Assembly (NCBI GenBank): GCA_032358255.1
Contig: JAULBX010018858.1
Location: 1 to 64,000 of the forward strand
Reading direction: 5' to 3'
Length of the DNA stretch: 64,000 bases
DNA from: Heterotrichella gracilis
Lineage: Eukaryota; Sar; Xanthophyceae; Tribonematales; Xanthonemataceae
The notes below the pieces were generated by a model. The model was not told the origin of the DNA. It saw only the letters and a list, made by a program, of their open reading frames with translations, and did not search any database. The stretch's first letter is position 1. The number at the start of each line of letters is the position of its first letter. A program made the position numbers and the translations under genes. This document shows positions 3,201 to 64,000 of this stretch, piece by piece.

Positions 3201-4441
3201 TTGGTGATCAGCATTATTGTGCTCGGTTGACCCCTTGGTCATGGGCGCCATTGGTGGTTGTTTGAACCTGTGGCTGCTTCTTTTCAGGTACCGCCGTGGC
3301 TGATTTCGTTATCTTCCCCTCCCGCTGGACTGTGGCTGAGCACACCTTCCGCCCCCCCTACTTCCACCGCAACACAATGAGCGAGTTCATGGGGCTCATC
3401 AGGGGGATGTACGATGCGAAACAGGACGGATTCCTGCCAGGAGGTACGGGCACCACTCTCCGTGGTGGTGATGGGGGATGGTGGTGGGTGGGGTGGGATG
3501 GGGGCGTGTGGGGTGGCAGAGCCCAGGTTGAGGGGAAATTTTGCACATGCATGAACTCTTAACACCTGAATTTTAGTACAGAGCAAGTCTTGTGTGCTTG
3601 CCCATGCCTGCCTTGCTCGTCCTCCCCGCCCACGCTTGGCTGCATCACCCCTTTCAGCCCCCTCGCCAATCCCTCCACATGCGTCAGCCTATGGGATTAG
3701 AATTTAGGGTTCAGGGTTGATGCATGTGCCAGTCTCCACACCTACGCCCTAAGCCGAAGCCCTAACCCTATATCTCTCGGCAGGTGCCAGCCTCCACGCC
3801 TGCATGACCCCCCATGGCCCCGACACCGCCACCTTTGAGCAGGCAATTGGCCCATCAGCGGACCACCCGCAGCATCTGCCCATGGACACACTGGCGTTCA
3901 TGTTTGAGGTGAGTATGCAACCCCGAGGCTGCTGGAAAGCCCCTTTTCTATGCACTTGGTATTAAAAATATGTATTATGTTTGGTTGAACATAGGGCACA
4001 CTACAAAAGTTCTGAGCGTCGGGCTTATGTCATGCCATGCACAGGGAAAAATTGAAACATTCTCAGCAACAACATCTTGTGCAATAAGGGTTTTTATGAT
4101 GACATTAAAATGGACACTGGACCATTGAGTCTATGGCAGTCAGGTTGAGCATTGGTCCTGTGTGGCAGGTGAATGCACTGGCATGTGCATTACAATATTA
4201 ACATAGAACAACATCTTGTTTGTTAATATCAATATGAATGTCTGTTTATTCAGATTTACTTTATCTCTTGCAGGTGAACGCGCTTCCGCGTGTGACCGCC
4301 GCAGCTCTTGGCTCCCAGCACATGGACCGGGACTACTACAAGTGCTGGATGGGGCTGCGCAGCCACTTCACGGGGGCGCTGGAGGGGGACAAGGAGTGGG
4401 GCGGGGAGGGGAAGCTGGCCAACGGCACAGTCACAGCATGA
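292..4441 (+). CDS. HGD: homogentisate 1,2-dioxygenase, complete, 11 exons
   Basis: This enzyme opens the ring of homogentisate to maleylacetoacetate in tyrosine breakdown, using non-haem iron. Exons read as 292-343, 759-820, 903-964, 1163-1369, 1708-1817, 2024-2197, 2450-2559, 2910-3069, 3288-3443, 3784-3908 and 4274-4441. All have GT-AG borders and sum to 1386 nt (461 aa; the family is about 445). The family landmarks are in order: SGFGNEFSSE at the N terminus, [63 protein letters not shown] and [11 protein letters not shown]. By family alignment the iron ligands are His339, Glu345 and His375, with catalytic His273; all are present. The ATG at 292 leads straight into the conserved YLSGFG start. 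Exon 10 has a decayed copy of its 5' edge in the preceding intron (about 3728-3775). Confidence 0.96.
3700..3783 (+). repeat. copy of an exon 5' edge plus CCCTAAA-like repeats inside an HGD intron
   Basis: Just upstream of the real acceptor at 3783, positions about 3728-3755 repeat the first bases of the next exon (GTGCCAGCCTCCACGCCTGC) with a few changes. The copy runs into degenerate CCCTAA units that also serve as the pyrimidine tract of the real acceptor. TTAGGG-like units precede the copy at about 3700-3720. Confidence 0.6.
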
Positions 4442-5778: not shown

Positions 5779-8700
5779 GTGCACCATGGTGCTGGTACCA
5801 CACCACCCCAAACACTGCTCACCACCACACCACCAACACCACTATCACAGCCGTCCACAGCCTGCCATTTTCCCCTCAACACCTCAACCTGCACAGCACA
5901 CGGAAAGAAACAGCCAATAACCCACATGGGCCCCCCCAAGGGCGACCCAACAACCCCTGCATCGGGCAACCAGGCCACTTCAGGTCCCCAACCCAGCCAG
6001 CAGGAGCCCCAACCACCACCCTTCACGCTGCTGAAGCGCAACAAGTACATAAAGTATGGCAAGGCGGTGCAGGAGGAGGCCCAGGTGTGCACCTGCACCC
6101 CCAGGTCAACGGGGGGAAGCAGCTGCGAGTATGGGTGCATCAACAGGGCGCTCAACGTGGAGTGCTCCAGTGAGTGCCCCTGTGGAGAGGAGTGCCGCAA
6201 CCAGCAGATACACAAGCGCCAGGTCCCAAAAACCAAGTACGTAGGTGCCTTCCCTCCCCAACGTTCCCAACACCCTCCCCCTTGCAATTCAATTAAATAT
6301 GTAGAGTATATAATTCCATGCTGGCCCCTTGTACTGCCCAGCAGCAACATGATTCTGTTATTCCAGCAGCAACCCCCACCAGCGCCTGCAGATTGCGTTT
6401 GGTAGGATGGTGGTTGCCAAGGGTAGGTGCATGGGTGTTGCCAGCGCTGTGACTTCAAACTTTGCCATCAACGCTGTCACGAACCCCATCCTCTGCATGG
6501 CTTCACGCCATGCCCCGCTCCACTACACCATCATCCCCTGCCTGCTTGCTTTGCCACTGCGCCTTGGCCTTTGCACAACAATGATCGCCAGAGAGGGCGG
6601 GGGCCCAGCAATGATGAACCCTACATCCCAGCCCCCAAACCCTGGCCCCACTCAGCGCGTACCTGGGCTGGCGTGCAGGATTGTGTTCATCAGCGCAAGC
6701 GTAGGCCATGGCATGGTCGCTCAGGAGCAGATACCCGCCGGGACATTTGTGGCGGAGTACACAGGTGCGCTGTCGGATCCCCAAAACCGTAAATTCCAAA
6801 CCCTGAACCCTATACAGATACTTCGGGCGGCCTTTGTGGTGGAGTGCATGGGTGTGCTGTGGGCTCTAGCCGGTGGGGTTGTGCAGTTGGGGTTGGCTGC
6901 CATTGTATCATGGCTGCATCCCCAATGCCACATGGCGCATGGCTATGAGACAAATAGACAGACCCCGGGCAAGAAGAGGTACCGTGGGTATGCATCCAAG
7001 GGCCTCACCCGCCCCTACATCATGACCCCGGACCACAACCACATTCTCAACGCCACACCATGCATGATCGCAACCCCACCCTGTACCTCATTTGCACGCT
7101 CTCTTACCCTGCAGGCGAGGTGCTGAGCACCGCTGTCAGCGAGGAGAGGGCGCGTGAGTACGCAGCCGAGGGCCTCACCCGCACCTACATCATGAACATG
7201 GACCAGGAGCATGTGATCGACGCCACGAAGAAAGGGGGCTGGGCGCGCTTCCTCAACCACTCCTGCGCCCCCAACTGCGAGACCCAAAAGTGGGTGGTGG
7301 GGGGCCGGCTGCGCATCTGCATCTTCGCAAAGCGGGACATCCGGCAAGGGGAGGAGATCACCTACAACTACAACCTGGATTGGAACGGGTTTGAGCGTGT
7401 CAGGTGAGTGGTAGGGGTTCTGAAGCAAGGGTCAGGGGTAGTGTTCAGGGTGGATGTTTGCAGTGCAGATTAATCCCCACTGCATATCTCGTGTGTTGCC
7501 ATCAACATGCATCCCCTGTTTCCCTCCTCGGTTTGAAAATGTAATGACCAGGCGGGTGTTTTGGATGGCATTGAAGCTTTTTGGTCTTGGCACGCACCCG
7601 GCATGGACAAGCAAGGTGCAGGGGTTGTACTCTCCCCTGGATTTTTCAATGGTATAATTTTGTAGTGGGTTTAATTCTGGCTGCTAATCTAATTGTGTTG
7701 CTGGACTCCATGTTACTCACTCACCCAAATTCCATGGAGCATGCACCTATCAGTGTGAATCCTTGCCAACGATGTGCGAAGTCCTCCCTGCATGTTTTTG
7801 AGTTTTGCCCCCTTCTCTCCCCATCGCCTGATCCCCCCGAATTTCCCTCCCTCCCCTCCCAGGTGCCACTGTAATGCTCCCTCCTGCCTCGGCTGGCTGG
7901 GAGCGGGCAGTGGGGCGGGGCGCCAGGCAGTGGAGGACGAGCGCGAGGAGAAGGAATTGGGTCCAGGGGTGAAATACTGGGAGGACGGGGATGGCACCAG
8001 GTACAAGGTGAGGGGAGATGATGGGAGGGGATGACACAGGTGACAATTGGAGGCTAGTTACTCATTGGCATTGGTGGTGATGGGTGCGACGTTGTTTCCT
8101 TTGAAGCAGTAATCAGGAGCCATTGTAGCAGTCAGCCTTGCACCAGGTTGTGGCACTCGTTTCATTTCTGCTGTTCCCGCCCCTGCCCAGGCATTGCTCA
8201 TCCCACTTGATAAAGACCACTTTTTCATTTGGTAATTGTAAAAACTACTAATAATATATTTCTGCCTTCCTGCAGATGGACAATTTGGACACATTTGATT
8301 CAGATGAGGAGGGTGTCCCCGCGAGGCCGCGCATTGCCCCCCCTGCCACCCCCTTGCCCACTACCTCCCCTGACACTGATCCGGGTGGGGGGAGTGGAGG
8401 GAGTGGAGGAGGGGGGCTCCAAGGGGAGGAGGAGAGTGAGGAAGGGATGGAGGTGGATGAGGACGAGGCAGGTGAGGAGATGGATGTGGGGAATAGGGAG
8501 GGGCCCGAGACCGCTAAGAATGGTAAGCATCCCCATCACACCCCGCCACCGCACGCCCTTGTGTGGCTTTGGATTATGGGCTATGGTTGGTGTCACCCCC
8601 TCTCATATACCTTTCACAGTGCCAGGGCAGAACTGCTTGGCGCTGCATGTGCAAGGCTGGCTGCCAATCTTGCTGTATTGTTGGAGTGCATGTAACACAA

Positions 8701-12020: not shown

Positions 12021-12500
12021 GTTGCTGGGCTAGGTGCACTCCCAACCTGAAGAGCCTGCCCCACGAGATGAGGGTTCGCACCCCAACTCTGCAATCGTGG
12101 CACCGTGGAAGTGGCTCACACGGTGGGTTCAGGACAAGTCTCTCGTGGATAACGGTGCGCCAACTGGGTTCTGGAAGTCTTAAAGCTTGATTGTTTGTCA
12201 AGTTTGAGGGTTGGAAACATTAATTGTTGGCGTGAATTAGGGCCCGTGTGCCATGGGGTAACGGATGTGAAGTATTTACAATAAATGCAGGGGACACACT
12301 GCGGCAAGGGGCCAAAACCCGACCCAATGCATGCATATGTGGGTGCTAATCTCTGACAGGTGCGCTATTCCACACAAAACACCCCGACATTGGTGACCTC
12401 AGCACAGCTTTCGACTATCCCATATTCATCTGCTTTTGGAAACGAGTCATTGCCACCGCATGTGAAACACTTTGCGCACGCCTGTTAACAATTGACAACG
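12021..12500. promoter_or_regulatory. shared spacer between two divergent genes
   Basis: The start codons of the FAd-like gene (minus) and RPN8 (plus) are 480 bp apart and point away from each other. Both promoters must therefore lie here or overlap. I see no TATA box or named motif that I would defend. Confidence 0.55.
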
Positions 12501-15477: not shown

Positions 15478-18400
15478 TCACCCCTGTGCGCCGCCCTTGC
15501 TGCGTTTCCGCGCGGGCCTCGTCCATTCCCCCGCCTCCCCCCCGGCGCCGCCCCCCGCCCCCCGCCGAGCAGACCCCCGCCGGGGTTTGCTCCCCGCATC
15601 CCCCGGCGCCGCCGCCGCCGCAGCTGCCGCCGCCGCAGCAGCAGGCACCAGGATGGCCTCGTTGAACGCCGATGACAGCAGGAACTGCTGCGCCGTTGGG
15701 GCCGCCGTGGGGTGCGCCGCGTGCGCGGTGCTTGCCGTGGGCAGCGAGTAGTGCGTGGACTGCGCCAAGGCTGACGACGTCCCCGCGCCCGCTGCGGTGT
15801 CCAGCACGCCCACCTGAAACGGCGCGCACGTGGTCAGTTGGTTAATTAATCTACCTGGCGGCCCTGCTATATTGGAGGAGTGCAGCCTCATGCACATCAT
15901 GCCAGGCAGTCTGTTGGCGCACTGCTACCAGCATGCACATGGGTCAGCATGAAAACCTGCAGCAGATATCTGAACCCTAAACCTTACACCCCCTAAACCC
16001 TAAAAGGCTCTGGCCCCACCTGCAGTGCAGACAGGGCCGCGCGAGTGCTGTCTGGCGTTGTGCCCAGCTGGATCTTGCCCGCCAGGCCCTCCCGCTCGAT
16101 GAGGCTTGAGATGTAGTGGCCGTGCGCCTCCAAGCTTACCTGGAGCTTGCGCTGGGACTGCGGAAAAGGCGGGGATACAGGTCTGTTGGCAACCAATGTT
16201 GTACAGAAACGTAAGCTTATTAAAAACATTCAATCACATTTCAAAATTGGTTACTAGAAAATGGGTCATTACTTTACTTTAATGTAATAGACTCTTTCTG
16301 TTTTCGGAACCTGTTAAAACACAACATTTATATGGAATAAACAGAGGCACATGTGCATGTCAGGCCGCCAGCCCCCACCCACCCACCTCCAGCTGCTCAT
16401 GCAGCTTCCTCTGCATCTCCATCTGCAGCAGTAGCGCCTCCTCCAGGCTCCTCCTCCGCGCAGCTTCTTCCTCCTCTCTCTCCCTTGCCGCGGCAGCTGC
16501 ACGGGCCGCCTCCCGCTCATGGGCCTGGCGGGCGGCTTCCGCAGCTGCGGCAGCTTCTGCTAGCTGCTGCTGGTGCTGCGCATGCTGGTCGGCCAGGTCG
16601 GCCTCCTCTTCCTCCTCCAATTCCTCTTCCTCCTCCTCCTGTGGGGTGTAAGGGGTGGGGGATGGGGTCGGGGAATGGGAGGGGAGTTATAATTCAAAAG
16701 GGGAAACACGAGGCAATGTCCTTCCACATGATCGACGTGATCCGCATGATCCACGTCCGTGCGTCCATCCTACGCCCCATCCACGTAGGGTGCCAGCATA
16801 CCCTACCCCTAGCAAAATCACCCCCATATGCAGTCCCATGCTCTGTTCAGGATGGCGATGCACCCACCAACAATCGCCACATACCACACACCCTTGAACT
16901 TCCAAAGCCGCCGCCAAGCGCCACCTCAACCCCCAACCACCAACACCCACCTCCTCATCCTCATCCTCATCTTCGTCCTCGTCATCCCCACCCCCCCTGC
17001 CCCGCCTGCTGCGCCGCCCCCTCCACCTCTCCTCCGCCATGGGCTCCTCCCCCGGCATGCGGATGTTCATGCGGTACTTTTGCAGGTGGCTCTTGATGTG
17101 GTAGATGGTCAACCCCTCCACCGCCATGAGCTTGAGAATGCCCTTTGGGGTTGCGTGGTTGGGGCCGCCCAGGGAGATGACCGCGTTCACAAAGAGGTCG
17201 TGCAGGGCGGGGGTCCAGCGCAGGCGGGGCTTGGAGGAGGCGCCACCTGGCGATGGAGGGGGAGGTGGGGTGTGAGGGAGGGGCGTTGTGAATGGATGCT
17301 GTGAATTGAGATCACTGTCTACTCAACAATGCGTCCATGGTGGGCACGGTAGTAGAATGCTTCCCTGCCAGGCAGGCGAGTGTCAGGGCAGGGTACGGTA
17401 CCTTGCGTTTAGGGCTTAGGTAGTACCTTGCACGCTTTGCAAGGAAAACATGTTCCCAGGATTTAGGGTTTAGGTAGTACCTTGCGAGCCTTGCATGGCA
17501 TACATGCCGCTGTCCATGGCGCCTGCCCCCATGTCTCCCTCCAACTGCAGCATTTGGCCCAAGTCCATGGCGGGCTGCCCTATCATCACCTGCCCCATCT
17601 CACTCCCCGGGACCATGGTCAGCTCCAAGGGCTGCTGCAAAAAGACAGGAACGCAACTTATTGTTCTCATTCTTTTTGTAAAAACAAGAAAGGTTGAGGA
17701 TCTTTGTCGAGCTTCTCATGACCGGACTGCGAACAACAGGTCCAGGGTTTAGGGTTGAAGGTTTAGGGTGCACATCTGCACGTGCACAAAGGTGGCAGGC
17801 CTGCTAGGAGGGGCATAGGTGGCGCAAGCTGTGGCACGGGCTCCAATCAGGCTGTACCGATGGCATGCATTTAGCTGGCTGATGAAACAACAAAGTGCGA
17901 CACTGAAGCTGAAAGAGTAAACCACATTGGAGACAAACAAGCAAATGGCTTGTTTCCAACATGCACGCAGCGTCCTTCTGAATCCGCACTCACCACTGAT
18001 CCATCCCCAAGTATGGCCCCCGTTGGCGGCGGTGCCAGTTGGGGATAGGGCAGCACTGCCTGCTGCACTGCGCCTTCTCCCACCCCATCCCCACCAGCGT
18101 CCACGGGGACCTGAAGCACAAGCTGTTGTCCCTGCTAAATTGAAACCCTAGGGTAAGTTGGGGAAATCTGCAAGCACAAGCTGTTGGTCCAGCTGCAGGA
18201 GGAACCGCACTGACACCGGCACACCGCCATGGGATTGGCAAAAATCAGGGGAAACCTTCCCCCTTAAAAGGATATCGATACGTGCGTGCCCCTGTTCGGC
18301 AGGTTTGCCATCCACCCCAGCTGCGCCTACATGTCCTCCACCCTGAGCTGGGCCTGTAGCCAGGACAAAACCGCGGCAACAAAATCTTTGGGCGCTTTTG

Positions 18401-18603
18401 TTGCTGCCACGCTACCTATTTGCCGTGGTAACTATAAGCCCTGCTTCCCTCCCGGTGCCACCCACCTGCGCGGCTTGCCCCTGTTCCAGCGGGTTTGTCA
18501 TCCACCCCAGCTGTGCCTGCATATCTTCCACCCTAAACTCGGCCTCGGGCCAAAACTCGAGGTCCAGCCAATCCAGCGCCGTGTCCAGCGCCTTGTCGTC
18601 CAT
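15478..18603 (-). CDS. MYB-CC (GARP) transcription factor, PHR1/PSR1-like, complete, 7 exons
   Basis: This is a probable nuclear regulator of the phosphate-starvation type. Minus-strand exons are 18603-18466, 18134-17994, 17634-17481, 17246-16951, 16638-16387, 16157-16020 and 15813-15478, giving 1455 nt (484 aa), all in phase. The GARP/MYB domain spans residues about 155-203, from [12 protein letters not shown] through [10 protein letters not shown] to the signature SHLQKYR. The coiled coil carries the MYB-CC mark LHEQLE (322-327), then [18 protein letters not shown]. Between the two domains an acidic, alanine-rich stretch (about 230-320) is much longer than in land-plant PHR proteins, which recalls algal PSR1. 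The C terminus has a poly-alanine run and a basic end (RPARKRSK). An N-terminal piece of exon 1 is repeated in intron 1. Confidence 0.92.
18281..18360 (-). repeat. decayed copy of part of MYB-CC exon 1 in its own first intron
   Basis: Positions 18281-18360 repeat about 70 bp of exon 1 (18474-18551) with roughly one change in six bases. They share the CATCCACCCCAGCTG core and the CTCCACCCT-type block. The copy is on the donor side of intron 1. Confidence 0.7.
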
Positions 18604-21600: not shown

Positions 21601-21679
21601 CATGTGCATCTTGGGCCACCCCTCCCGATTGCCACCGAACAAACCCTAAACCCTAAACCCTCAACCCTACCCCGCGCAG
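18604..21679. other. gene-poor stretch with a GT microsatellite
   Basis: No conserved protein segment was recognised in 3 kb between the divergent MYB-CC and XPC genes. A (GT)n/(GC)n run lies at about 18727-18780. CCCTAAA repeats occur at about 21643-21668 immediately before the first recognised XPC exon. The first exon or exons of XPC and both promoters probably lie here, but I cannot place them. Confidence 0.5.
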
Positions 21680-39722: not shown

Positions 39723-39827
39723 CCTAGACTGTCTGTGGGATCGGCACAAGCTAGCTAATGTATTGCTGGCTTGTGGTGTGCCGATGTCTGTGGAGGCGTT
39801 TGGTTTCCTCCATGAGGTTAGCAAACT

Positions 39828-41715: not shown

Positions 41716-41979
41716 TTCAGGAGGGGCTGTTCCCTGCCGAACATGTTCTCCTCCCGGGCTAACCCACGCAGCTGGTGGCCAATGGTGCCATGCAGTTTGG
41801 CGCCTCAACGCAGCTGATTGGTGGGGGCACACCATTTGGCGGCCCCACGCAGTTGGTGATGCTTGCCGGTGCAGTTGATTCCCTGCCAGTGGATGGTGTG
41901 GTGGCGGTGGGGCCCCCACGGTGGGAGCCACATGGGGGAGGCAACCGTTGGGAAGGGTATGGCACTGGCGGAGGGGGCC
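41716..41979 (+). pseudogene. decayed partial copy of the FHA gene's last exon
   Basis: About 265 bp match 38402-38680 (the QLIGGG/MQFGA region of the FHA protein's last exon) with small deletions. It reads ANGAMQFGASTQLIGGG where the parent reads ANGAMQFGAPAQLIGGG. There is no exon structure or start of its own. It lies upstream of BTB copy 2, in the same order as the intact FHA gene and BTB copy 1. Confidence 0.88.
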
Positions 41980-45243: not shown

Positions 45244-48200
45244 GCCCCACAGCCTGTGCTCCCCCTGCAACCCGTGCGCCCCGCAGCTTCACCGCCCTCC
45301 ACACCCATGGGGTCAACCCTCCACACTGTGCTGCCACGGGTGAACCCCTGGAGGTGGGTGTGGTATATTAGGGTTTAGGGCGTTACCCCTCACGAATGGA
45401 AGGTAGCAGGGGGTTGAGGTACTCCTTGATATACCGCATGACATCAAGGTGTCAGCAAAGTGTGCACATTTGTTAAATGGCATCGTTCTTGCCGTTTTAT
45501 CATTTTCCTGGTTGTGGTTGCATGTCGAGGACTTGGCCGCAACGTGCATTTCGTCTTAATACTTTCGTTATCTCTATCTTTTAGGGTGTACGATACTGCA
45601 GGCTGGTTGTGCGCACACTACCCCACCCCCGTCACATTATACCACACCCATGCACTCCCCCCTTGTGGCTGCAGGGGTGGCGAACCTGCCTCCTTCCAGC
45701 AGCGGCGCGTGTACAACAAGATGCAGGACATGTGGGTGGATGGCGCTGGTGCATCGGGATACAACCATTCCAAGGGGAGGGAGGAGGAAGGGGAGGAGGA
45801 CATGGACAAGGTGGGTGCAGGGTGGGTGGGGATAGGAGCAAGTTGAACGTATTTTGTGCAATGCTTGATTAATATGAACATCCAACATACTGGACATAAA
45901 TGTTAATTTTATCTTTTATGGTGTGCTTGGGGTACGCACTTGGCTTTTGATGGCTTTTGATCGACCTACTGAATCATCCAAATGCAATCATGCTGCACCA
46001 CCTAAAAAGCAGCCCACAAAGTTTAGCCCATGCATTCGAAATGCACATGTGGTCGTGCCAGTGAAGGTTAAGGGTGAATGGGAGCCCGTTCCTATGAGGG
46101 TTGCCTGGTGGTAACGCCACACCTCACGGCCCATGGCTTGATAAATTACCCAAACAGTGGCAGGACAGGCGGGGCTGGCACACCCTGCTGCGTGCCTTTG
46201 CGCTTTTTCACAGCCCAGCCCTGGCTCATACAAAGAAAAAAAAGGAGTAATCACCCTGCGCGCCTAGTTTTCACTGCATCAATCTCCCTGCATCCCCAGG
46301 TTCGTGAGGTTGTTGGGCAGGCCACTGGCATGGAGGGTCCTGCTGAGGGGGAGAGCGCGGGGGCAGACAGGTGGGGGCGGCACCGGAAGGAGGAGGGTAT
46401 TGCACATTGTGTGGGATGGGGTGAAAATGGAAATGGGTGGGCTGTTGCAGGTGTGGTTGATGAAAGTGCCACTACTAGGTTGAGCCTAGCCCTTGCAATG
46501 CAATTGCCTACTTTGGCAGGTGCATTTACGGTCCATAGGTGCAGATGTTGGCAGGGTTGCATTGCCGAGGATGCAATGGCTCCATGTGAAATGCGTATCA
46601 TCCGTGGATGGACATTCAAGCTGTGAGGCTGGGACGCCTTTGCTGATGCGGTCATTATTAATCTAGTCACTGTGCTGCAAGCGCATGAGTGCATGAGTGT
46701 GTGCAGACCTGCATTGTGAGCGCCCAGTGGGTGGCACCCGGTAGGGTTGAGTTCAAACCACAATGGGCATGTGGTAACACCACACCACAGCATGGGTGGT
46801 ACCACCAACCCACGCCAACCCCCATGTACATTCATGCTGGACCCACTTCTCTCCTCTGCAGGGTCCACGCCCCCCACACCCTCTCCCCAGACGACACCAT
46901 CCCCGGCCCCATCCCCTCCCCTACCCCCCCACCCCCCACCGCCTCCGCCACCCCCCCACCGCCCCAGCCCCCCACCCCAGGCCAGGGGGGTACTCTGCAC
47001 TTTGATGACCAGGGGAAACAGGTCCCGGTCAAGGGGGATGCGCTTCATTATGATGACAAGGGGAACCAGGTGCCGGTGTTCATTGATGGCCAGTTTGATT
47101 GGACCCACGGGGATGACGTGGCTCCCAACCCTGATCGGGAGCAGGCTGAGGTGGAGGCTAGGCGCAGGGAGAGGATGATGCGGTGAGGAGGGTGGGGGAT
47201 GGGGAGGGAATCATATGCATTTTAAGCAGTGCATGTTGGGATTGGTGGTAGTGGTGGTGGCCGTAATGGTGTGGTGTGGGTGGTGGTGGTCCAATGTAAA
47301 AAGGCCCACGGGGATGACGTGGCTCCCCACCCTGATCGGGAGCAGGCTGAGATGGAGGCTAGGCGCAGGGAGAGGATGATGCGGTGAGGGGGTGGGGACT
47401 AGGGGGGTGATTCGATTTTGCATATTTAGCAATTCAGCCACATAGCTGTGAGTAGTGGTGGTGGTGGTGGTGGTGGTGGTGGTGGTGGTGGGTGGTGGTG
47501 GCGGGCCCAACTTGATTGGACTCACGGGGGATGATGTGGCGCACAATCCTGGGTGGTAGTAGGCAGGGGAGGAAAGTAGTTGCAGATAAAGGAGGATGCG
47601 GCGAGGGTGGGATGGGTGGGGGAGGCCAGATTCAAATTCCCCTTCACTGATCCTCCCTCCGTCCCCTGTGCAGCGCCCGACAGCCGGTGTCAGTGTCCGA
47701 CCAGTTTGACTGGACCCATGGCAGCGACAGCGACGAGGGGGTGCCGCAGCCACCGCCAAAAGGGGGAGAGAGGGCGCCGCGCAGGTAGGTGGGGGGTGGC
47801 TTGGAAAGGGGGATTGGGCGGGAAATGGTGGGGGGTGGCTTGGGAAGGCGGATGGGGAGGGGAGGGGAGGAGGCAGGGTGGTGAAAATGCGGGGTGGTGA
47901 ACTTGCGTGCGTGAGGCGGTAGTGAAAATCATTGTTATTGGTGGAAGTATGTGTGTGGGTGCCACTTCATCCTTTTACAGCAAATTAGCGATATTCTGGC
48001 CTCAGGAGAAATGTTTTAAAACAACCCCACGTAAAAATTGTGAACAATACGACGTGCAGAGTATCACATAGCAGGGTACCCAACTTTATTAACGACCTGA
48101 TGGGAGGTTTTCCTGACGGTCTCAGTAAATCTATGCCAAGCTGGGCGGGGATGTGTGGGGGCAGCTAAGACAGCTTGCCAAACGCACAGCTGACACTCCA

Positions 48201-52588: not shown

Positions 52589-55500
52589 TCAGCAGAACCA
52601 GAAGGACATCTCATTCCAGTGGCTCAGCGCGCACAGCGCAGGCAAGCCATACATAAGCTGGGGCTTGGCCTCCGCAATCGCATGCCGATTATGGCTGGAA
52701 AGCTCCACGCTGCGCCGGTCCCTGGTCCACGCCCCATCCCCAATTGTGACCTCCCGTAGGCCCCGCAGCAGGGAGAGGTGGCAAATGTCGTCCGCCTCCA
52801 GGGCCCCAAATGCGGTGAATGTGAGGGAGCGCAGCGCGGCGGGGGCAAAATGCTTGGCCAGCGCCTGCAGGTGCTCCCCTGATAGGCAGAGCGAAGGGGA
52901 GAGGAGGTAGAGGGAGGTGAGGGTGGTGGGGAGGGCGGCGATGGTGCCCAATTCCACGCATGCCATGTCGGCCACGTGGCGGATCTGGCCCAAATCCTGG
53001 GTCCCTGACTGGCCCAGCTGCTTTTTGAAGCTTTTTGAAATGCGCAGGGACCGCAGCCGGCCCAGGGATGCCAGTGCCCCCAGCCCCGCATCGCTCACCG
53101 CCCGCACGTCCAGCGTCAGGCACTCGAGCTTGCCCTGACGGGCCGCCAGCTGGCATAGGGTGGCATCCGTCAGCGCACTCAGCTGCCCCCTCTTCCCTGT
53201 CAGCCGCAGCGCCGCCAGGTGGCGCAAGGGGGACACCACCGCTTCGACAAACGCATCGGTGAGGTAGGTGGCCCCGGTGAGGGTTAGGGAGGTGAGGTTG
53301 GCCAGGGCGGGGGTGGGGGATTGGGCTTGGAGCTCAAGGGAGGCGGCCCAGTCGGATTCCAGGGAGAGTTGGACTAGGTTGGTGTAGGGGGAGAAGTTGA
53401 AGGTGTTGGGGCGCTCCCGGGGGCAGCCCCATTGGGGGACCTGCATGGGAGAGGGGAGGGAGGGTTTGTGGAGGGTTTAGAGAAAAGAGCTGGGTGGGAT
53501 CGTGGGGAACAGGCGTGAGGCGCGTGCACCAGGGCTTCGACAATGTACTTTCTGTGTGCGCTTGCGTGGGTGGTGTATGGTAATCATGGTGGGAGTGGGT
53601 GTGAAAACACGTACTGTGTATGAAAAACACATACACAATGAACGCTACAACGGCATGTCAAAGCAACAGATCAACCCCTCACAACCTCAACAAGGTGATC
53701 AATAGACCTATGTTTGAGGGTGGCACGAAGACATGACCTTCCCCCCCCACCCCTTCCTCCACTCCCCCCTACCCCCCGCCCTCACCTCAGTCGCGTGGTC
53801 CCCCACCAGGTACCTCCCCACCAGCGCCAGCCCCCGAACCACCTTGGGCGCATCCCCGCAGTGCGCAACCAGCTTGTGGGCGCCATACTTCTCCCCCACC
53901 ACCTCCACCCGCACGTCCCTCCTCGCCAGGTGGCACCAGGCAGTGATGAGGGCGGCTGTGGGCTGCAGGTTGTGCTCCACGCGCTTGTTCACCACGCAGG
54001 TCAGGGAGGACAGCGAAGGAAGCTGCGGGATGGCGCAAAAATAATGTGAGAATATTATAAAGAAAAAGCATAAAAGTACATAAAAGAGATCGGGCGAGTT
54101 TTACAAAGACGAAATAATATTAGGCACAAAGATACACAGTGGCTGTGGGCTGTAGATTGTGCTCCACGTGCTTGTTCACCACGCAGGCCATAAAGGACAG
54201 TGCGCCCTAACCCTAAACCCTCACCTGGGGTATCGCCAGCAGCAGCTGGTCAAAACCGCGATGTCCCCTACTACCGCCCAAAACCATAGACCCTAAACCC
54301 TAAGCCCTCACCTGGGATATCTCCAGCAGCAGCTGGTCAAACACCGCAATGTCCCCCACAATACACCCCAGGTGGCTCAGGCCCCCAAGGGAGTGAAGGG
54401 TAGAGAAACACAGCGGGGAAACAGGGAGCCCAAAAGCCAATCGCAGCTCCCGCAGATGGGTCAAGCATCCCAGGGATGTGAGGGCTGCGTCGCTGAGCAT
54501 GTGGATGACTCTGTTTTCGTATATGAGGAGGTGCGGGTCCTCCCCCTGGCGGTGCAGGCCCAGTTCCAGGCGAGTCAGGCTGACACCTGGTTGAGCAAAG
54601 CAGATAAGTAAATTAATAAAGAATTTTGATGAAATAGTAAAAAGTCAACCAGAAACAATGGGAATATATAAATACCTAAATGATTGATAAATCGACCAAG
54701 ACACCGATTGATAATGCATACAATATGTAACCCAACAAATGGAGACAAATAACAAACAAAGCGCCTCATCTCCAGGGCATTGGTGGAGGAACACAGTGCG
54801 AGCGCCAGAACGGTAAGGCACGGCACCCACCTGGCAGCGCCTCCAGCATGGCCTCCAGCTGGCGCATGGGGCTGCGCCACATGTGGCTATCCACATACAG
54901 CTCAAGGTGCGACAAACGCCGCATGGCGCCAAAGGCAGCCTGGATGTCGGGAACCACAATATGATTAAGCTCACAGGGGAAGTCGAGGATGAGCTTTGAA
55001 AGTTGCGGGGCGATGCGGGCTGCAGTGACCAGGCGGGCAAAGTTGGCTGCTGCAAAGTGCGTGTGGGAGGGGTCTGGGGCGTAGCGGGTGGTGGGGGTGG
55101 CGGCTGAGGAGGGCGCCAGGCGGAGGGAGGTGAGGGAGGTGCAGGCGGAGAGGGCTGCAAGGGGAGGGGAGGAGTGGGTGGGTGGGGGGTGTGAGCGCAG
55201 GGAAGGGGGCCAGAGGTGGTGCCGGAAGTGGGGATGGTGGCTGTGACGGTGGGTGATGGGTGATGGTATGTGTACATTCAAGAGCATTGGGGAAGTGCGA
55301 TAGGATGGAACAATGCTGGATAACACGTGCAGGGATGCAGGGTGACAGAATAACAGAATAATGATGAAGCCCGCCGCAGTCCGTAGACCATGTGAGCATA
55401 GGGCCACCCTCTTTGATGAGTCGCATGGCGCATTCCAGGCTCATATGAAGCAGGAGCTGTGGGCACGCACGCACGATGCAGGGTAGCACGTGCATGCAAT

Positions 55501-56863
55501 CCCTGCCCTCCTCCCCACCAAGCCGCGCATCCACCCCCACCCCCCACCCCCCACCTGTGAAATACTCCAGCGGCAGCCCCTCCCCCCCCCGCACCACCAC
55601 CTCCGCCACCCCATGCCCCGCCAGCAGCCCCACCACATGTGCCACCAGGGACCGCGCGGCCTCGCTGGGCACGCCCCAGGGCCCCGCACCCCCCTCCTGA
55701 CGAAACAAACAAACAATAAGTGGATACGCTCCCCGTGCCATGCATGGGAGTTGGTTGAGGAGGACAAAGAGCAACGCGCGCTGCTTGGGATGAGGCACCC
55801 ACAGGCAAGCAGGACTGGAGGACACACAGTTGTGGTGGATGTGCGCCTCAAGTGGACATACGCGCACTGAACCAGAATGAGACTGCAGCCTGGTGGGACA
55901 GCCATAAATGGTTGGCCTGAAATGCCTTGCTGCAATTTGCAACTGAAAGACATTCAGGCATGAGAGCCAGCCTCCGAGGCTGGCCACTCCCTAACGCCCT
56001 AATGACATGTGCCCATGCCCCTACCTGTTGGAAGCACAGATGCACGCAGGACAGGCCGGGCAGGCCACTGCGCTGCGCCTTGTTGGCTGCCGACAGGATC
56101 TCCCGCTCCAGCTTGCGTGTGAGGAGTGGGTAGTCGGGCTCACGGTGGTCTGGGAGGGGAGGGGGGGTGCATAAGTTAATATTAAATGGGAGGTGCGGAC
56201 GGTGAATCAGGGGGTATATTTAGCTAATTTGGGAGCTGAGTGTAGGGCTTGGGGAATGATTCAGGTGGTGGGAAGCATGTACGGAGCGCATGTGGCGCTG
56301 TGTGTGTGGGTGGTGGTGTGCGTATGGGGTGCGCAGAGCTCCGGCACCAGCGGGTTTTAGGGTTTACCTGGCGTGCGCAGCGCCAGCACCAGCACCAGCG
56401 GGGGTGCGGCTGGCCATGCGGTGCACCAGTGGTAAAGGGTTTAGGGTTAAGGGTTTACCTGGCGTGCGCAGCGCCAGCACCAGCGGGGGTGCGGCTGGCC
56501 ATGCGGCGCACCAGCGGCGGCAGGCGGTGCGCGCAGCGTGGTAGGAGGGGGGGTCAAGGGAGGCGCCGATGACCTGCAACGGGAGGAAAACAGGAATGTA
56601 AGGGAGGAAGGGGCGTGCAGGGCTTCCCGCCTTGTTTTCACCTGTCAGCAGATGTCATGCAGGCTGTGGGTGCACAAGCACAGGGTACTTGGCACATGTA
56701 TCTGACACCTTGAACAAAATAACACAGAATACATGATGGGTGTCCGCTGCAGCGTATGACGCCTTGCTGTTGCACTGCGTGTTCCCTCCCCACTCGTGCC
56801 TGCCCCCCTTGCCCCCCGTACCCTCAGTAACCCTGGCTCCAGGTCCTCCCAACCGGTACCCAT
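52589..56863 (-). CDS. F-box/leucine-rich-repeat protein, complete, 8 exons
   Basis: This is a probable substrate receptor of an SCF ubiquitin ligase. Minus-strand exons are 56863-56822, 56573-56459, 56149-56025, 55696-55555, 55154-54831, 54586-54312, 54022-53786 and 53440-52589: 2112 nt, 703 aa, all in phase. The first two exons join into an F-box: GWEDLEPGLLR then VIGASLDPPSYHAARTACRRW. The rest is degenerate LRR sequence such as LTSLRLAPS, LSHLELYVD, LTRLELGLH, LTHLRELRLAF, LTSLTLTGATYLTDAFV and LECLTLDVRAVSDAGLGALASLGRLRSL (in parts). No ortholog can be named. Decayed copies of exon 3' edges lie in at least three of its introns. Confidence 0.88.
54130..54311 (-). repeat. decayed exon-edge copies with TTTAGGG units, F-box gene intron
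   Basis: On the coding strand, 54300-54225 repeat the 3' edge and donor of the exon ending at 54312 (the QLLLEISQ segment). Positions 54200-54136 repeat the 5' part of the next exon (54013-53955, VVNKRVEHNLQP). TTTAGGG units stand after the real donor and between the two copies. Confidence 0.85.
56335..56458 (-). repeat. exon 3' edge copies with CCCTAAA units, F-box gene intron 2
   Basis: The edge of the exon ending at 56459 (GTGCTGGCGCTGCGCACGCC then a GTAAACCC donor) is repeated at about 56369-56430, including the GGCCAGCCGCACCCC block and the same GTAAACCCTAAA donor. A third short remnant is at about 56338-56365. The copies are over 90 percent identical to the exon in the first 55 bases. 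Confidence 0.85.
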
Positions 56864-58924: not shown

Positions 58925-61900
58925 GTCTATGCGCAGGATAGCCCCCACCTCCCAGCAGCAGCAGTACCAGGAACGGAATGCAGGGTGAGTGCGGTGCTTA
59001 GGCCATATCTGAAAAGTCTAAACCCTAAACCCTAAACCCTAAAGAGTGGTTTGCCCTGGGACTGTGCACAACTGTCCCTGGTGCTCTCACGGGTTGTTGG
59101 TTGCCCGCCTGTGCTTGCGCCAGCTGTCATGGGATCATGGTGTTTAGGGTTTAGGGTGGACAAGCTGTAAGATGGGGTCGGTATCACAGGGGCCAAATCT
59201 GCATGGCCTCAAGTGCTTCTCATCCACGCCTAAGTGCGCTGCTTAGGCCCCCCTGCTTGCCCACCACACGCACAGCCCGCATGCACAGGATTGTGCACTG
59301 TCACATCCACATACACCCCCACGTGCACAGCCAAACACCCACACGCAATCCCCACATGCGCAGGCACACGCACCCCTCAAGTGCTCAACCACGCGCACCT
59401 TCATGCACCTGTCAAATCTGGCAACGTGCTCAACCATGTGCACCACCACATGTGAAGAAAAGCTTGCCTTTCACCCACACCCACACCCATGTGCACGTGG
59501 CCCTGCAGGGGGGCTGGTGGATCCTCCCCAGGGGGTGCCAGCCAGGTGAGCCAAGGGGAGCAGAGGCGCAAGCAGCGATACGGGGAGGTGGCGCAGTCCT
59601 ACAGGGCGCCACATCAGCGGGGGGCGCCAGGTGGCAGGGGTGGGGGCAGGGGAGGAGGCAGGGGCGGCGGCAGGGGGGGCGCAAGGGAGGGAGGCAGAGA
59701 AGGGGCCAGGGAGGGGGCCAGGAGGTGGGAGGATGCAGGCAGCGGGGACAGGCCACGCGGCGTACCACCCCCCAGGTAAAACCCTACACCCTAAACCCCA
59801 AACCCTTAAGTATACTGCTCATGAGTGAAAACTTGAAGGCCAAGCGGCGTACTGCTTACCAGGTGAAAGCGCCTGCATCTGTTGACCTGTACCCTTGTAG
59901 GGTGTTACACCCCAGCCACCATACCCATGTCACCTCCCCTGCAATGCCCTGACTTCCTACATTCGTACTGCGCACCCAAACCCAAACAACTCCCTGCCAT
60001 CCCCTGTGCCCCCAGGGAGGTAGTCCCCATCCTGCACCAGGGCGATGGCCTCAGCGCCACCTCCTTCCATCGCGCATGTGGGCCAAAAAATAAACCCTAA
60101 ACCCTAAACTCTAAGCTTCTCCTGTTCCTAGGGAGGTGGTCCCCATCCTAAGCCAGGGCGATGGCCCCAGCGCCACTTTCTTCACATTGCGCATGTAGGC
60201 CAAAAAAAAACCCTAAATCTAAACCCTAAACTCGTGCGTCCCCAAGGAAGGTGGTACCAAGTCTGCGCCAAAGGGTTGGCCTCATCACCTCCTCCTCCCC
60301 GTGCACGTGGGCCAAAATACAACCCTAACCGTAAACCCTAAACCCTGACACCTGCGTCCCCAGGGAGGTGGTCCCCATCCTGCGCCAGGGCGACGGCCCC
60401 AGCGCCACCTTTTTCACGTCGCGCACCTGGGCCAAGCTGGGGCTGGCGCCACCCATGCAGCAGGCATTGGAAAACGTGGGCGCAGCCAGGCCCAGCCACA
60501 TACAGGTGGGTGGTGCATGGTGCGTGGTGGTGTGCGGGAGGGGTGCGTAATACAAGTAGGATAAAAGAGTGCAGTAATGGGACGTGGTAGCCTTGGTGGA
60601 ATGGAGTCTAACCCTGAGGCTGTCCTTGACCTGCAACTTTCAGAGCAAGCAGTGGAGTGTTGCAGACATCAAGTTGGGCCGCCATTCGGCAAACTTTACA
60701 GGCGCAATGGCAAGCGGCACCCTCGTACAGCAAGTTTGGCCCATGCGCAGCTAACTTACCGACCTGCAACTTTTCAGCAAGCAGTGGAGTATTGCAGACA
60801 GTGGAGTATTGCAGACACCAAGTTGGGCCCCCATTCGGATAACTATTTTGTACCCAGGCGCTGTTATTGCTTAAAAATTATGTTTTTGTTCCTGCAGTGA
60901 ATGGATTTTTACAATATGATTCAACACTTTGTTTATTACCTGGCTTTTTTTTGTATATTGCTTTATTTTGCAACCCCTCCCAGGCGCTTGCCTGCGACCT
61001 CCTCTCCAGCCGCCCCCAGCATGCCATCATGGCGAGCCACGCAGGCAGCGGCACTAAACCCTAAACCCTAAACCCTAAAACCCTAAACCCTAAACCCTGG
61101 CCTACCCAGAAACCCTACTACCAAAAGGAGTCCCCTTTTTTTTTAATTTGTTTACTGTGTACTTGCTGCAGGCGCTTGCCTATGACCTCCTCTCCTCCCG
61201 CCCCCAGCACGCCATCGTTGCCGACCACGCAGGCAGCGGCAAGACCCTGGCCTACCTCATCCCGCTGGTGGAGGGGCTGTGGCGCGAGGAGCAGGAGGCG
61301 GGCAGGAAGATGACCCAGCCATACAGGCCCAGGGCGGTGGTGGTGGCGCCCACGTCAGGTGAGGGGGTGTAGGTTGGAAGCGACAACGTGCCGGGCTTGC
61401 ACTTTTTGTCTTTACTGAAGAACCCTCACAAATAAAATAAAACCAGGAACTGTGTACTTGTGGTATTGATAGAAATGGAGCTTGTTGACCCTATCCTAAA
61501 CCCTGAAACCCTAATGGGATTTGAGCCCACTGACCCAAGGCCAAACTCTACATTCTACACCCTCAGGGGTGTACATTAAACCTTATATGTACATGTGTAC
61601 TGAATCTGATACCATGTGGCCCAAGCATCTCGTCTCACTTGTTTACCCTCCTTACCCCCCACCCCACCCACCACCACCACCCCACCCCTCGCAGAGCTGT
61701 GCAGCCAGGTAGTCCGCGTGGCGCGCGCCCTCTCCACCACCCTCCCCTTCCGCTCCTACGCCCTCACGGGGGGCCACAAGTGGGGGCCACAGAAGGAGGC
61801 ACTGGAGTACGGCGTCGACCTGCTGGTGGCGACACCTGGCAGGCTGGCGGAGCACATGAAGGCGGGCAGTGTGGACCTGGGGGGTTGCGGGGTGGTGGTG

Positions 61901-64000
61901 CTGGACGAGGTGGATGTGCTGCTGGATGAGTGGGGGGCAATGGTGGCGGGTTGTGAGGTGGTGGTGCCGACCGAGGTGGGTGTGGCGCTGGGGTGTGGGG
62001 GTGGTGGGCTGTCAACGTAGATGTAGTTGGTGTGCTGTGGCTGTGTGGTTGTGGATTGTGCATGGCCTGTGGGTGGACTGTGGGGGATAGAGAGTACATG
62101 TGGGGATGGTCTGGATCAGGGCAGGGCGTGCCACTTGTAGTACCATCCCCTTCCCATCCACACCCCACCCTCAGCCTGAGGAGATGATTCCCTTGGTCCA
62201 TGCACTTTGTGTAACCACCCCCACACACCCCACCGCGCACGCTCCCTCACCCCAACCCCCACCCCCCCACCAGGTGATGCGGCCGCCTTTGCAGAGCAGG
62301 TGGCGCCCATCCGCGCCGCCGCCCCCCCCACCACCCGCTTTGTGTTTGTCACCGCCACCCTGCCGGAGCACATGTACCACCAGCTGCAGGAGGAGTATGC
62401 GGGCCTGGGGGCGGCAATGGGGCCCGGCCTGCACTGCACGGCGCCAGGTGGGTGGTGGGGGATGGTGGTGGTGGTGAGTGGGGTGCGGTGTGCGGGGGCC
62501 GAATTATGCAGGATGTACATGTTGCCTACCCCTTAGCAAGCGGTGTTGTCCTGGAACAAGTCAGTTCACTCCAAGATTACTCCAAGAAATATCCCAGCTA
62601 TTTTCTTCTGCCTCCTCAAGTGTCGCCAAGGAGCGCCGCAGCTAAACATCATATCACCTTTCCCAAGCGTGGATTTAGGGTTTTCAAACCTAAACCCTAA
62701 ACACCCACGCCCTCTGAGTGTCCTCACACAGAAAATTTGCAACACACTAACCCCTCCCCTGATCTTCTTTAAAGGCGTGGAGGAGCAGCTGATCGACTGC
62801 AGCGGCGGCGAGGACATCAACGAAGACACCGGTTTTGAGCGCAAGTCCATCGCCCTCATAGCCTGCCTGGAGGAGCACAAGGCGCAGCGCAGCATCGTGT
62901 TCTGCAACAAGATCGAGGCCTGCCGCAAGGTGGAAAACCTGCTGCGGAGGAAGTACGAGGACGGGGGGGTGGAGGTGCTGGCGTACCACGCGGCCATCAG
63001 GGATGAGCTGCGGAAGGAGAATCTGCAGGTGGGTGGGTGGGTGCGGGGGGTTGGCGGGGGGTTGGGGGGGGAATGATAAGACAATATCATTAGGGATGAG
63101 CTGACGCAGGAGAATCTGCAGGTGGTGGGTGGTTTGGAGATGGTGGTGTGTGTGTGTGGAGGATATTACCACAAGGGATGAGCTGAGGAACGAGAACCTG
63201 CAGGTGGGTGTCGGGGCGGGTGGTGTGGTGCTTGTCCTCTGTGAATGGGGGCTGCACGTTTGGCTGTACTGCTGAGGCTATTTCATGGCGCCACAAAGGG
63301 GGGTCTCGCCAGGGTTGACTCGAGTACCTATGCACGTATGGCTTGCAAACCCTTGATAGGGCTCATGCCATTACTAAGCCCTAAAATTTCGCGTGCCCAC
63401 TGTCGTTATCTGGTGTGTCTCCGCGTCTGCCACCACCCACAGCCAGAAATTCCACCTTGCCATCCCCCACCTGACACGCACATCCACCCTCCCTCTCCCC
63501 CCCCCCGCAGAACTTCCTGCGCCCCCCTAACAGCCCCAACAGCCCCCGCATGGTGCTGGTGTGCACAGACAGGGCCTCAAGGGGGGTGGACAGCGCGTGG
63601 GTGGAGCATGTGGTGCTGTTTGATTTCCCCCGGGACCCCAGCGAGTATGTGCGGAGGGTGGGGAGGACGGCCAGGGGCGCGGGCGGCAGGGGGGTGGTGT
63701 CGGTGCTGGTGCTGGGGAGGCAGGTGGGTGGCGGGTGGCGGGGAGGGGGGGGCGATTTGTGTGCATGGCGGTTTAGGCCATGCATGTGCTGCAGCATGTG
63801 TTTTGGTTGTGTGGAACCCACTGTGCATGAGGCGCCCGCCACTCAAATTGACAAGCAGGCAGCCTGTCCTTAAACGGGCGCGTTGGGTACAAGGGTTTAC
63901 CTAGGGTCTTGACCAGCGTCCGCAGGTCCGCCTGGCCACCCTGTAGGGTTATACAGGGTATTGCTTTGTTTATTTAGGGTACTGCTAGGGTTTTGACCAG
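58925..64000 (+). CDS. DEAD-box RNA helicase, RH50-like, 3' end beyond the window
   Basis: The plant relative RH50 acts in plastid rRNA maturation. Exons are 58925-58984 (weak), 59509-59775 (arginine/glycine-rich), 60364-60505, 61172-61358, 61695-61949 (donor inferred from phase), 62274-62447, 62775-63028 and 63511-63723. Helicase motifs run in order: Q-motif region RPSHIQALAYD, motif [21 protein letters not shown], motif II DEVD in place of DEAD (as in RH50), motif III TAT, then [52 protein letters not shown] and GRTARG. Together [20 protein letters not shown] and [12 protein letters not shown] single out the RH50 group. The C terminus is cut off by the window and no transit peptide could be identified because the first exon is unsure. 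This gene has the richest set of exon-edge copies. Confidence 0.88.
59003..59170. repeat. CCCTAAA/TTTAGGG repeats in opposite orientation
   Basis: CCCTAAA units (59019-59041) and TTTAGGGTTTAGGG (59141-59157) face each other within 120 bp upstream of the arginine/glycine-rich exon. Confidence 0.8.
60008..60363 (+). repeat. three tandem decayed copies of a helicase exon 5' half, each running into CCCTAAA repeats
   Basis: The real exon start (60359-60430) is preceded by copies at about 60012-60084, 60127-60207 and 60240-60316. All begin with a CC(C/T)AGGGAGGTNGT-like acceptor, continue through the CAGGGCGATGGCC block and stop after GGGCCAA. There the real exon goes on with GCTGGGG, but each copy passes into A-rich and then CCCTAAACCCTAAAC sequence. 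Unit length is about 115 bp. Copies 1 and 2 keep an AG acceptor. Confidence 0.93.
60628..60838 (+). repeat. tandem duplication of about 135 bp in a helicase intron
   Basis: The block GACCTGCAACTTTCAG through TTGGGCCGCCATTCGG (60628-60690) recurs at 60761-60838. There an internal GTGGAGTATTGCAGACA unit is itself doubled. Confidence 0.85.
60980..61100 (+). repeat. copy of helicase exon 61172 5' edge interrupted by a CCCTAAA array
   Basis: Positions 60980-61053 copy 61168-61242 (acceptor AG then GCGCTTGCC... GGCAGCGGCA) with about 9 changes, two in the motif I region. Six to seven CCCTAAA units follow (61054-61098). After the array the text resumes with CCCTGGCCTACC, matching the real exon after the same point (ACCCTGGCCTACC). 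The array thus sits inside the copy at its telomere-like AAGACCCTGG site. Confidence 0.92.
63086..63215 (+). repeat. two extra copies of a helicase exon 3' edge with donor
   Basis: The exon end AGGGATGAGCTGCGGAAGGA... CTGCAG|GTGGGT (62999-63034) recurs at about 63091-63127 and 63174-63211. Each copy keeps CTGCAGGTG, a usable-looking donor. Confidence 0.93.
63905..64000 (+). repeat. probable exon-edge copy with TAGGGTT units at the window end
   Basis: After the acceptor-like GTCCGCAG at 63919-63926 come the codons for VRLATL, the expected continuation (RH50 proteins read VALAR after GKQ). They are followed at once by TAG, TAGGGTT-like units and then TTGACCAG at the window edge. Since TTGACCAGCGTCCGCAG precedes the 63926 site, the sequence right of 64000 probably repeats it, and the true exon lies outside. 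Confidence 0.6.

Follow-up and report, generated by a model that had tools for sequence, protein, structure and literature searches.

Tandem duplications of exon edges and telomere-repeat arrays in the introns of Heterotrichella gracilis

Small tandem duplications arise in human and mouse cells by CST-guided fill-in of 3' overhangs through Pol alpha-primase (Schimmel et al. 2021, PMC8355091), and the CST–Pol alpha complex also fills in telomeric 3' ends (PMC8355091). The intronic duplications described here resemble these in being small, direct and tandem and in needing no prior homology. They differ in that telomeric repeats often stand at the joins—none is described in the available part of that paper (PMC8355091)—and in that the mammalian duplications were shown in cells, whereas those of H. 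gracilis are known from sequence footprints alone. Mammalian telomerase has added telomeric repeats at double-strand breaks (Nergadze et al. 2007, PMC2246262), and flanking duplications are present at 6 of the 130 interstitial telomeric loci in rodents and at 4 of the 25 in primates (PMC2246262). The arrays of H. gracilis share with these interstitial telomeric sequences (ITS) the internal occurrence of the species telomere repeat and may share with them microhomology such as AGGG. The ITS loci number 83 in human and 79 in chimpanzee (PMC2246262), whereas thousands of matches occur here in 68.5 Mb, counts that are not strictly comparable because the length cut-offs differ. Unlike the ITS of that study, the arrays sampled here are mostly intronic and tied to exon-edge duplication.

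Three further systems concern introns or telomere-like motifs. In the potato RdRp case (PMC4974935), the duplication likewise crosses an intron–exon boundary; there a new intron arises, whereas here an existing intron is seemingly lengthened, with the copies on their own side. Plant telo boxes are also short AAACCCTA motifs, for which their authors propose telomerase acting at free 3' ends (Gaspin et al. 2010, PMC3022908). They concentrate in 5' flanking regions and in 5' UTRs, whereas the arrays here are intronic and without 5' bias, the first fifth of the gene holding 6 arrays versus 16.6 expected. Introners (PMC9860276) likewise affect introns genome-wide; they are copies of one element, whereas each copy here derives from its own flanking exon. 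The separate ingredients are already known; their combination and density appear to be new.

The window is the whole 64-kb stretch of DNA that was analyzed. The initial annotation had listed 19 coordinates at which its introns hold decayed copies of the adjoining exon ends, and this is confirmed: 15 of the 19 outscore all random controls, with a further 2 borderline and the remaining 2 unsupported. For this, 81 nt around each position were aligned to ±700 nt, with 200 random 1,400-nt stretches from the window as control; all 7 donor-side and 8 of 12 acceptor-side positions outscored every control, the weakest being 6815 (score 34, control maximum 31). The four remaining positions were re-tested with shorter queries, the contig continuation L022 added, and 300 controls each. 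Position 3728 (score 26) ties with the best control, with its match at 3784, where it is expected; 63919 (score 24) ties likewise, with its match at 64234, just outside the window. Copies at 6364 and 35138 found no support in this re-test. The features of the window are collected in Table 1.

Table 1. Exon-edge copies and adjoining telomere-repeat arrays in the 64-kb window.
Feature	Position	Strand	Basis
Outer 3' edge of upstream exon with GT donor, SET-domain gene	6728..6779	+	Aligned to 6815-6866; SET/AWS domains
Decayed inner copy of SET-gene exon 3' edge with donor, directly after AAACCCTGAACCCTA	6815..6866	+	Score 34 vs 31
Decayed inner copy of downstream SET exon	6969..7056	+	76% over 88 nt to 7139-7226
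Outer coding copy within SET exon 7115-7403	7139..7226	+	Gene model, domain match
Inner copy of upstream exon edge, Myb-like gene	18284..18355	-	84% to outer copy 18473-18545; Myb domain
FHA gene: acceptor and exon 5' edge, three times, each with CCCTAAACCCT or a decayed form	35753..35929	+	Alignments
201-nt tandem unit: exon 3' edge, donor, intron head	47104..47607	+	Inner copy keeps GT donor
Additional partial copy of the 201-nt unit (47104..47607)	47512-47625	+	
Outer copy, coding 5' part of downstream exon, LRR-like gene	53954..54013	-	Alignment, gene model
Inner copy of downstream exon segment, LRR-like gene	54141..54200	-	88% identity
Inner copy, LRR-like gene: upstream exon 3' edge, donor, telomere array (54209-54221)	54205..54271	-	90% to 54291-54359
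Outer copy, LRR-like gene: upstream exon 3' edge, donor, array (54290-54303)	54291..54359	-	
Exon 3' edge and donor, twice, each followed by a TAAACCC-type array (sense)	56353..56517	-	88% identity
DEAD-box gene: acceptor and exon 5' edge, four tandem units	60003..60435	+	Last unit taken as coding
Inner DEAD-box copy: exon 5' edge including the CAG	60981..61053	+	86% to 61169-61241
45-nt telomere array in inner DEAD-box copy; ACCCT common to array and exon edge	61054..61098	+	
Outer coding copy in DEAD-box exon 61172-61358	61169..61241	+	Alignment, gene model, domain
Outer 3' edge of helicase C-terminal exon with GT donor	62995..63051	+	Alignment, domain
Two inner copies of helicase C-terminal exon edge (63088-63132, 63174-63224)	63088..63224	+	Both score 64 vs control maxima 34, 30

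In the unit at 56353..56517, arrays lie at 56356-56366 and 56436-56448, the array bridging the copies; in the DEAD-box gene, CCCTAAA arrays at 60091-60109, 60208-60231 and 60332-60346 separate the units of 60003..60435. The LRR-like gene yielded no Pfam match. A domain search places a PF15704 ATP-synthase subunit among the predicted proteins, and known RNA families number zero at the gathering threshold within the window.

Introns were taken from the window and from 16 loci of 10 kb each, sampled from the same genome of 68.5 Mb, with exons and introns as predicted by a home-made HMM gene finder. Among 271 usable introns (100–1,500 nt, exon flanks of at least 40 nt), 19 carry an exon-edge copy at a score of at least 46: 4 of 66 in the window and 15 of 205 in the 16 loci. 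Twenty length-matched introns from other loci give 0.05 on average, and the reverse complement of the same 271 introns yields no copy at this score; the edge copies thus exceed chance. An introner or transposon origin was rejected, since the edge copies match their own exons and foreign introns give 0.05 of 271. The counts of side, splice dinucleotides, join arrays and gene position use a looser intron filter. The low-GC loci L004, L005, L016 and L021 were excluded from all counts except that of direct and inverted repeats, and L001-L003, L024-L031 and L039 lie outside every exon, duplication and array count. Some low-GC contigs of the assembly look foreign.

The duplications are almost all direct, adjacent, and tens to ~200 nt in size, as small tandem duplications from break repair are. 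Local alignments less than 500 nt apart are direct in 51 cases and inverted in none at a score of at least 60, and direct in 66 and inverted in 2 at a score of at least 50, with overlapping alignments tallied separately and the four low-GC loci included. The copies have a median length of 75 nt (10–90% range 42–158 nt), a median spacing of 115 nt (83–200 nt) and a median linker of 38 nt. This excess of direct repeats and the intron controls support the earlier proposal of local tandem duplication across splice junctions; the varied decay it described corresponds to an identity of 69–97% between copies, and its view of a process spread over the genome agrees with copies in both the window and the sampled loci. 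The copies also keep to the side it had assigned them in 35 of 44 cases (binomial p = 1e-4), a bias due in part to mere proximity: of the 27 downstream-exon copies 24 lie in the acceptor half of the intron, and of the 17 upstream-exon copies 11 lie in the donor half, the opposite of the Rogers-type pattern, in which the intron head resembles the downstream exon and the tail the upstream exon. Eight of the nine exceptions fall in introns of at most 262 nt; in three of these, all in the window, the gene finder mistook the inner copy for an exon. That the functional copy is probably the outermost one, again as first annotated, agrees with domain matches in two genes: the SET protein built from outer copies matches PF00856 over 1–105 of 105 residues, and the DEAD-box protein built likewise matches Helicase_C over 4–108 of 110.

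The statement that no named element does this holds in that no shared element is involved—at the loci analyzed, no flanking 7-mers beyond telomere-like words are common to more than 5 of 148 arrays—and falls short in that the telomere-repeat arrays at the joins were overlooked. (CCCTAAA)n is the species telomere repeat, with arrays in the first bases of contigs such as C70, C140, C609 and C770; the internal arrays are identical to it, as in telomerase-inserted ITS. A TERT RNA-binding domain is encoded on contig C626, and TTTAGGG has been called likely ancestral to green algae (PMC12636532). This plant-type telomere, the PF15704 subunit and a Myb protein would by themselves suggest Viridiplantae. 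Genome-wide, the 15-mer AACCCTAAACCCTAA has 5,117 matches versus 1 for the reversed pattern. In the sample, arrays of at least 10 nt number 87 versus 1.0 in an order-2 Markov control, and 80 of the 87 lie in introns. An array of at least 8 nt lies within 20 nt of the inner copy's exon-internal end in 17 of 44 cases; permutation within these introns predicts 6.9 and never exceeds 15 in 2,000 rounds. Without the array-selected loci the figures are 7 of 27 versus 2.6 expected (p = 0.004). Array ends favor T or A (109 of 148), with start and end phase judged too weak for use. At two sites where copies were compared, break end and telomere repeat may share microhomology: ACCCT at 61053 and TAGGG near position 2844 of locus L011. 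The flanks of the 148 arrays contain no convincing telomerase-RNA-like motif.

The copies are probably scars of small tandem duplications that arose when staggered breaks were repaired by fill-in, telomerase having in some cases first extended an end. Two close nicks on opposite strands, one exonic and one intronic, would yield complementary 3' overhangs of ~50–150 nt, and fill-in and joining of both would leave a tandem duplicate of the sequence lying between the two nicks. In some events telomerase would extend a 3' end beforehand, so that (TTTAGGG)n marks the join; with the right-hand end extended, the array would read (CCCTAAA)n. Where the duplicated stretch crosses a splice junction, use of the splice site in the outermost copy would restore the old mRNA, and the inner copy would become part of the intron and then decay—the lengthening of the intron being a by-product. 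Outer copies would survive because they alone keep the exon intact, and the fixed geometry would need no targeting because the outermost copy restores the mRNA and is kept. Copies and arrays appear to be insertions, for which we infer that breaks had staggered 3' overhangs, that fill-in was of the CST–Pol alpha kind and that the arrays came from telomerase. The telomere arrays at the joins point to break repair.

Alternatively, telomere-like arrays may have come first, fragile intronic repeats provoking the breaks and tandem duplications, with telomerase taking no part in the latter. The array density in noncoding DNA, 2.99/kb within duplication spans versus 0.36/kb elsewhere (8-fold), is in line with this, as are the arrays inside every copy at 35753, 54205, 56353, L008 8138, L032 3339 and L033 391 and the 54 of 85 noncoding arrays outside duplication spans. 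This reading is nevertheless rather unlikely: arrays favor the join between copies over other intron positions, and opposed arrays run G then C at ~3:1, an order that fragility does not predict. TTTAGGG-N0-30-CCCTAAA has 263 matches genome-wide versus 89 in the opposite order (overlapping matches included; reversed-pattern controls 26 and 20), which would be the polarity expected from telomerase extending both break ends. Join arrays carry the sense of the extended intronic 3' end in 14 of 17 cases, a result confounded because TTTAGGG close to an acceptor brings in extra AG dinucleotides, which could interfere with splicing. Against telomerase extension stand the 33 of 52 duplications whose span has no array of at least 10 nt and, on the plus strand where a linker separates array and copies, the failure of the simple rule of a G array by the left copy and a C array by the right copy, which 7 of 23 arrays fit and 16 do not (one tie scored against the rule); this last test is weak because BLAST truncates the intronic part of the copies.

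Tandem duplication within genes is common. Replication slippage or unequal exchange, combined with independent microsatellite growth, would make the co-location coincidental; selection by itself yields the geometry, and within-gene duplication is reported as frequent (PMC4974935). This is improbable given that arrays of at least 10 nt lie in 19 of 52 duplication spans (the other 33 lack one) versus 6.6 when positions are shifted within the locus (at most 14 in 300 shifts), and that among 89 tandem heptamer loci the telomere unit is found at 34 and the runner-up at 9. Positive selection might instead keep the arrays as branch-point or polypyrimidine signals, as arrays immediately 5' of acceptors are C-oriented in 18 cases and G-oriented in 1, genome-wide matches before TGCAGG—not always an acceptor—number 1,010 for C arrays versus 592, and arrays 10–40 nt from donors number 24 versus 9.8 expected; avoidance of AG near acceptors, however, accounts for the absent G orientation with no function needed. 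Selection might also keep the copies as spare splice sites, which the initial annotation held them to supply. GT or AG is retained in 22 of 32 inner copies whose edge falls within or adjoins the match (a further 12 being unjudgeable), near the neutral expectation at 89% mean identity; splice-site selection on inner copies is not supported, and the selective reading as a whole is very unlikely. An assembly artefact from unmerged haplotypes or collapsed repeats, which a single assembly of unspecified sequencing technology and its foreign-looking low-GC contigs might suggest, is exceedingly improbable, as the copies differ by 3–31% and many contigs show the same pattern.

Fill-in repair with occasional telomerase extension is testable because the genome holds thousands of telomere arrays with a preference for introns, and some of the exon-edge duplications carry that signature at their joins. 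How introns grow and drift is a long-standing problem for which few mutational mechanisms can be dated, and the present case also ties telomere biology to gene architecture. As a broader and tentative proposal, telomerase may be a routine end-processing step in gene-internal break repair, and telomere-tagged splice-junction duplications may be a main origin of new intron sequence and of shifts in intron edges. If so, intron growth in this lineage would be a by-product of broken ends handled as telomeres.

Contig C190, of which the window takes positions 1-64,000, has a length of 83,897 bases and belongs to an assembly of 68.5 Mb in 903 contigs. The genome is eukaryotic, with GT-AG introns and a GC content of about 0.56. 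Domain matches in the window indicate homogentisate dioxygenase, a SET/AWS protein, a mitochondrial ATP-synthase subunit (PF15704), a JAB/MPN protein, a Myb-like factor, and BTB, BAH-PHD, FHA, and DEAD-box proteins. All counts come from this one genome, from which 20 loci of 10 kb were sampled and four with a GC of 0.35-0.38 left out. These four (L004, L005, L016, and L021, on contigs C1, C100, and C180) carry few telomere motifs, unlike the remaining loci, and their contigs probably represent another organism or an organelle within the assembly. The exon models are solely those of a home-made HMM gene finder, trained on the window and the 16 loci (224 kb), which yielded 43 genes and 367 introns, with medians of 256 for introns and 138 for exons.

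The initial annotation had placed copies of flanking exon edges at 19 intronic positions. Fifteen of these align with their neighbor better than with any of 200 random stretches. At 3728 and 63919, the score equals the best control, yet the match falls on the expected partner; at 6364 and 35138, alignment against controls does not support an edge copy. Across the window and the 16 loci, 19 of the 271 filter-passing introns hold a copy of their own exon edge at a score of at least 46, compared with 0.05 on average for 20 length-matched introns from other loci and 0 for reversed introns. Among 52 nonoverlapping local direct duplications (score at least 50, spacing under 1 kb), one copy is exonic or junctional and the other intronic in 26, and each copy lies on a predicted junction in 12. 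These 38 compare with 21 in random within-locus shifts, whereas intron-intron pairs (11 versus 17.1) and exon-exon pairs (1 versus 3.4) fall below theirs. The excess at exon edges is in part a matter of detection, since selection on one copy keeps the pair recognizable longer. Copy identity spans 69 to 97%, so the duplications differ in age. Inverted local repeats are rare, though present: 66 direct repeats versus 2 inverted ones lie less than 500 nt apart at a score of at least 50, and 31 versus 1 were found in later loci.

In all 24 sequences, including seven array-rich loci added later, 41 of 430 introns carry a copy. Of 27 copies of the downstream exon, 24 lie in the acceptor half, and of 17 copies of the upstream exon, 11 lie in the donor half. 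Where the splice dinucleotide of the inner copy, inside the intron, can be judged, it is retained in 22 of 32 cases, near the neutral expectation. A junction-spanning duplication would create two candidate splice sites, of which only the outer one would restore the old message; the rule that the outermost copy is functional thus needs no targeting.

The telomere repeat of the species is (CCCTAAA)n. Perfect 42-nt arrays begin within ten bases of the start in contigs including C70, C140, C609, and C770, and some other matches from this search are internal (e.g., C109, C120, and C346). The 224 kb contain 87 perfect stretches of this repeat of 10 nt or more, compared with 1.0 for a Markov control. 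Introns account for 80 of them (0.60 per kb) and exons for 2; the 5 in intergenic DNA (0.19 per kb) fall below the number predicted from the intron rate (Poisson p 0.002). Of 89 tandem heptamers in the studied loci, 34 are the telomere unit and 9 the next unit. Genome-wide, one telomere-repeat 15-mer has 5,117 matches versus one for its reversal, a count that takes in true telomeres and in which 11 among 100 matches listed overlap a same-array neighbor. Plant telo boxes are 5′-biased, whereas the arrays here are not. Less than 80 nt from acceptors, sense-strand arrays read CCCTAAA 18 times and TTTAGGG once. At 5-30 nt before TGCAGG, CCCTAAACCC has 1,010 matches genome-wide (reversed control 0) and GGGTTTAGGG 592 (reversed control 2). 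At 10-40 nt from donors, 24 arrays are found versus 9.8 expected.

Array density in noncoding DNA is 2.99 per kb within duplication spans versus 0.36 elsewhere, and 19 of the 52 duplications carry an array, compared with 6.6 in shifts (highest of 300 shifts: 14). Arrays tend toward the join between copies: in 17 of 44 cases (6.9 expected), the inner copy has an array of at least 8 nt no more than 20 nt from its exon-internal end, and with the array-selected loci left out, this holds for 7 of 27 (2.6 expected; p 0.004). Array and copy meet at a common ACCCT at 61053 and at a common TAGGG near 2844 of locus L011. Among 100 listed places of the 1,010 with CCCTAAACCC...TGCAGG, eight clusters on one strand were counted by eye, comprising 17 places at spacings of 48-172 nt; they resemble units of array and acceptor repeated in tandem at other genomic sites. 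Locus L032 features about 390 nt of repeated exon-edge units (3339-3730) with telomere arrays at each joint. In locus L037 of the same assembly (G000:C33:135180-135274), opposed TTTAGGG and CCCTAAA arrays form two similar units, 61 nt apart.

The window carries further repeats. Three predicted exons at 47674-49964 encode the repeat PVSVSDQFDWTHGSDSDE, whose duplicated copies seem to have remained coding and lengthened the protein. The strongest local inverted repeat adjoins a direct repeat of 499-nt spacing and is perhaps a small mobile element.

Further repeated stretches in the window
Feature	First copy	Second copy	Identity	Distance or length
Larger paralogous stretch, BTB-like gene and piece of FHA gene	38402-38680	41718-41976	72-80%	2.6-3.3 kb apart
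Larger paralogous stretch, BTB-like gene and piece of FHA gene	39936-40333	42551-42946	72-80%	2.6-3.3 kb apart
Larger paralogous stretch, BTB-like gene and piece of FHA gene	40573-40768	43625-43820	72-80%	2.6-3.3 kb apart
Coding PVSVSDQFDWTHGSDSDE repeat	49508-49574	49840-49906	96% (DNA)	
Strongest local inverted repeat	48223-48339	48596-48706	70%	over 119 nt

Telomerase acting on both ends of one break would leave a scar reading TTTAGGG...CCCTAAA. Opposed arrays at most 30 nt apart show this order in 263 matches and the opposite one in 89 (reversed-pattern controls 26 and 20), both counts being inflated by overlapping matches; the p-value for this contrast presumes an independence that such matches lack. 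Grouped by eye, the 50 matches listed for each order on the + strand form 40 clusters for TTTAGGG...CCCTAAA and 44 for the opposite, which puts the ratio closer to 2.7 than to 3. At exon-internal joins, the array sense fits an extended intronic 3′ end in 14 of 17 cases; much of this bias could come from AG avoidance near acceptors. A cruder linker test on the + strand gave 7 for the expected polarity and 16 against. Because of the inflated counts, the AG-avoidance confound, and the contrary linker test, a telomerase-type polarity of the arrays is suggestive, not proven.

The duplications probably arise from a staggered break, optionally extended by telomerase, followed by fill-in and joining of the ends. 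A telomerase gene is encoded (PF12009 at contig C626). Small tandem duplications result when CST-Pol alpha fills in 3′ overhangs, according to PMC8355091, which also describes this complex as filling telomeric 3′ ends. In mammals, telomerase inserted repeats at breaks, with flanking duplication in a minority (PMC2246262). For plant telo boxes, telomerase on free 3′ ends was already put forward by Gaspin et al. (PMC3022908). Among the entries listed by literature searches, none described telomere-tagged exon-edge duplications in an alga; the nearest single-gene precedent is a potato intron, with a duplication across an intron-exon boundary (PMC4974935). One event of break, optional extension, fill-in, and joining would explain why the duplications are direct and of this size, why an array stands at the join, and why G arrays precede C arrays.
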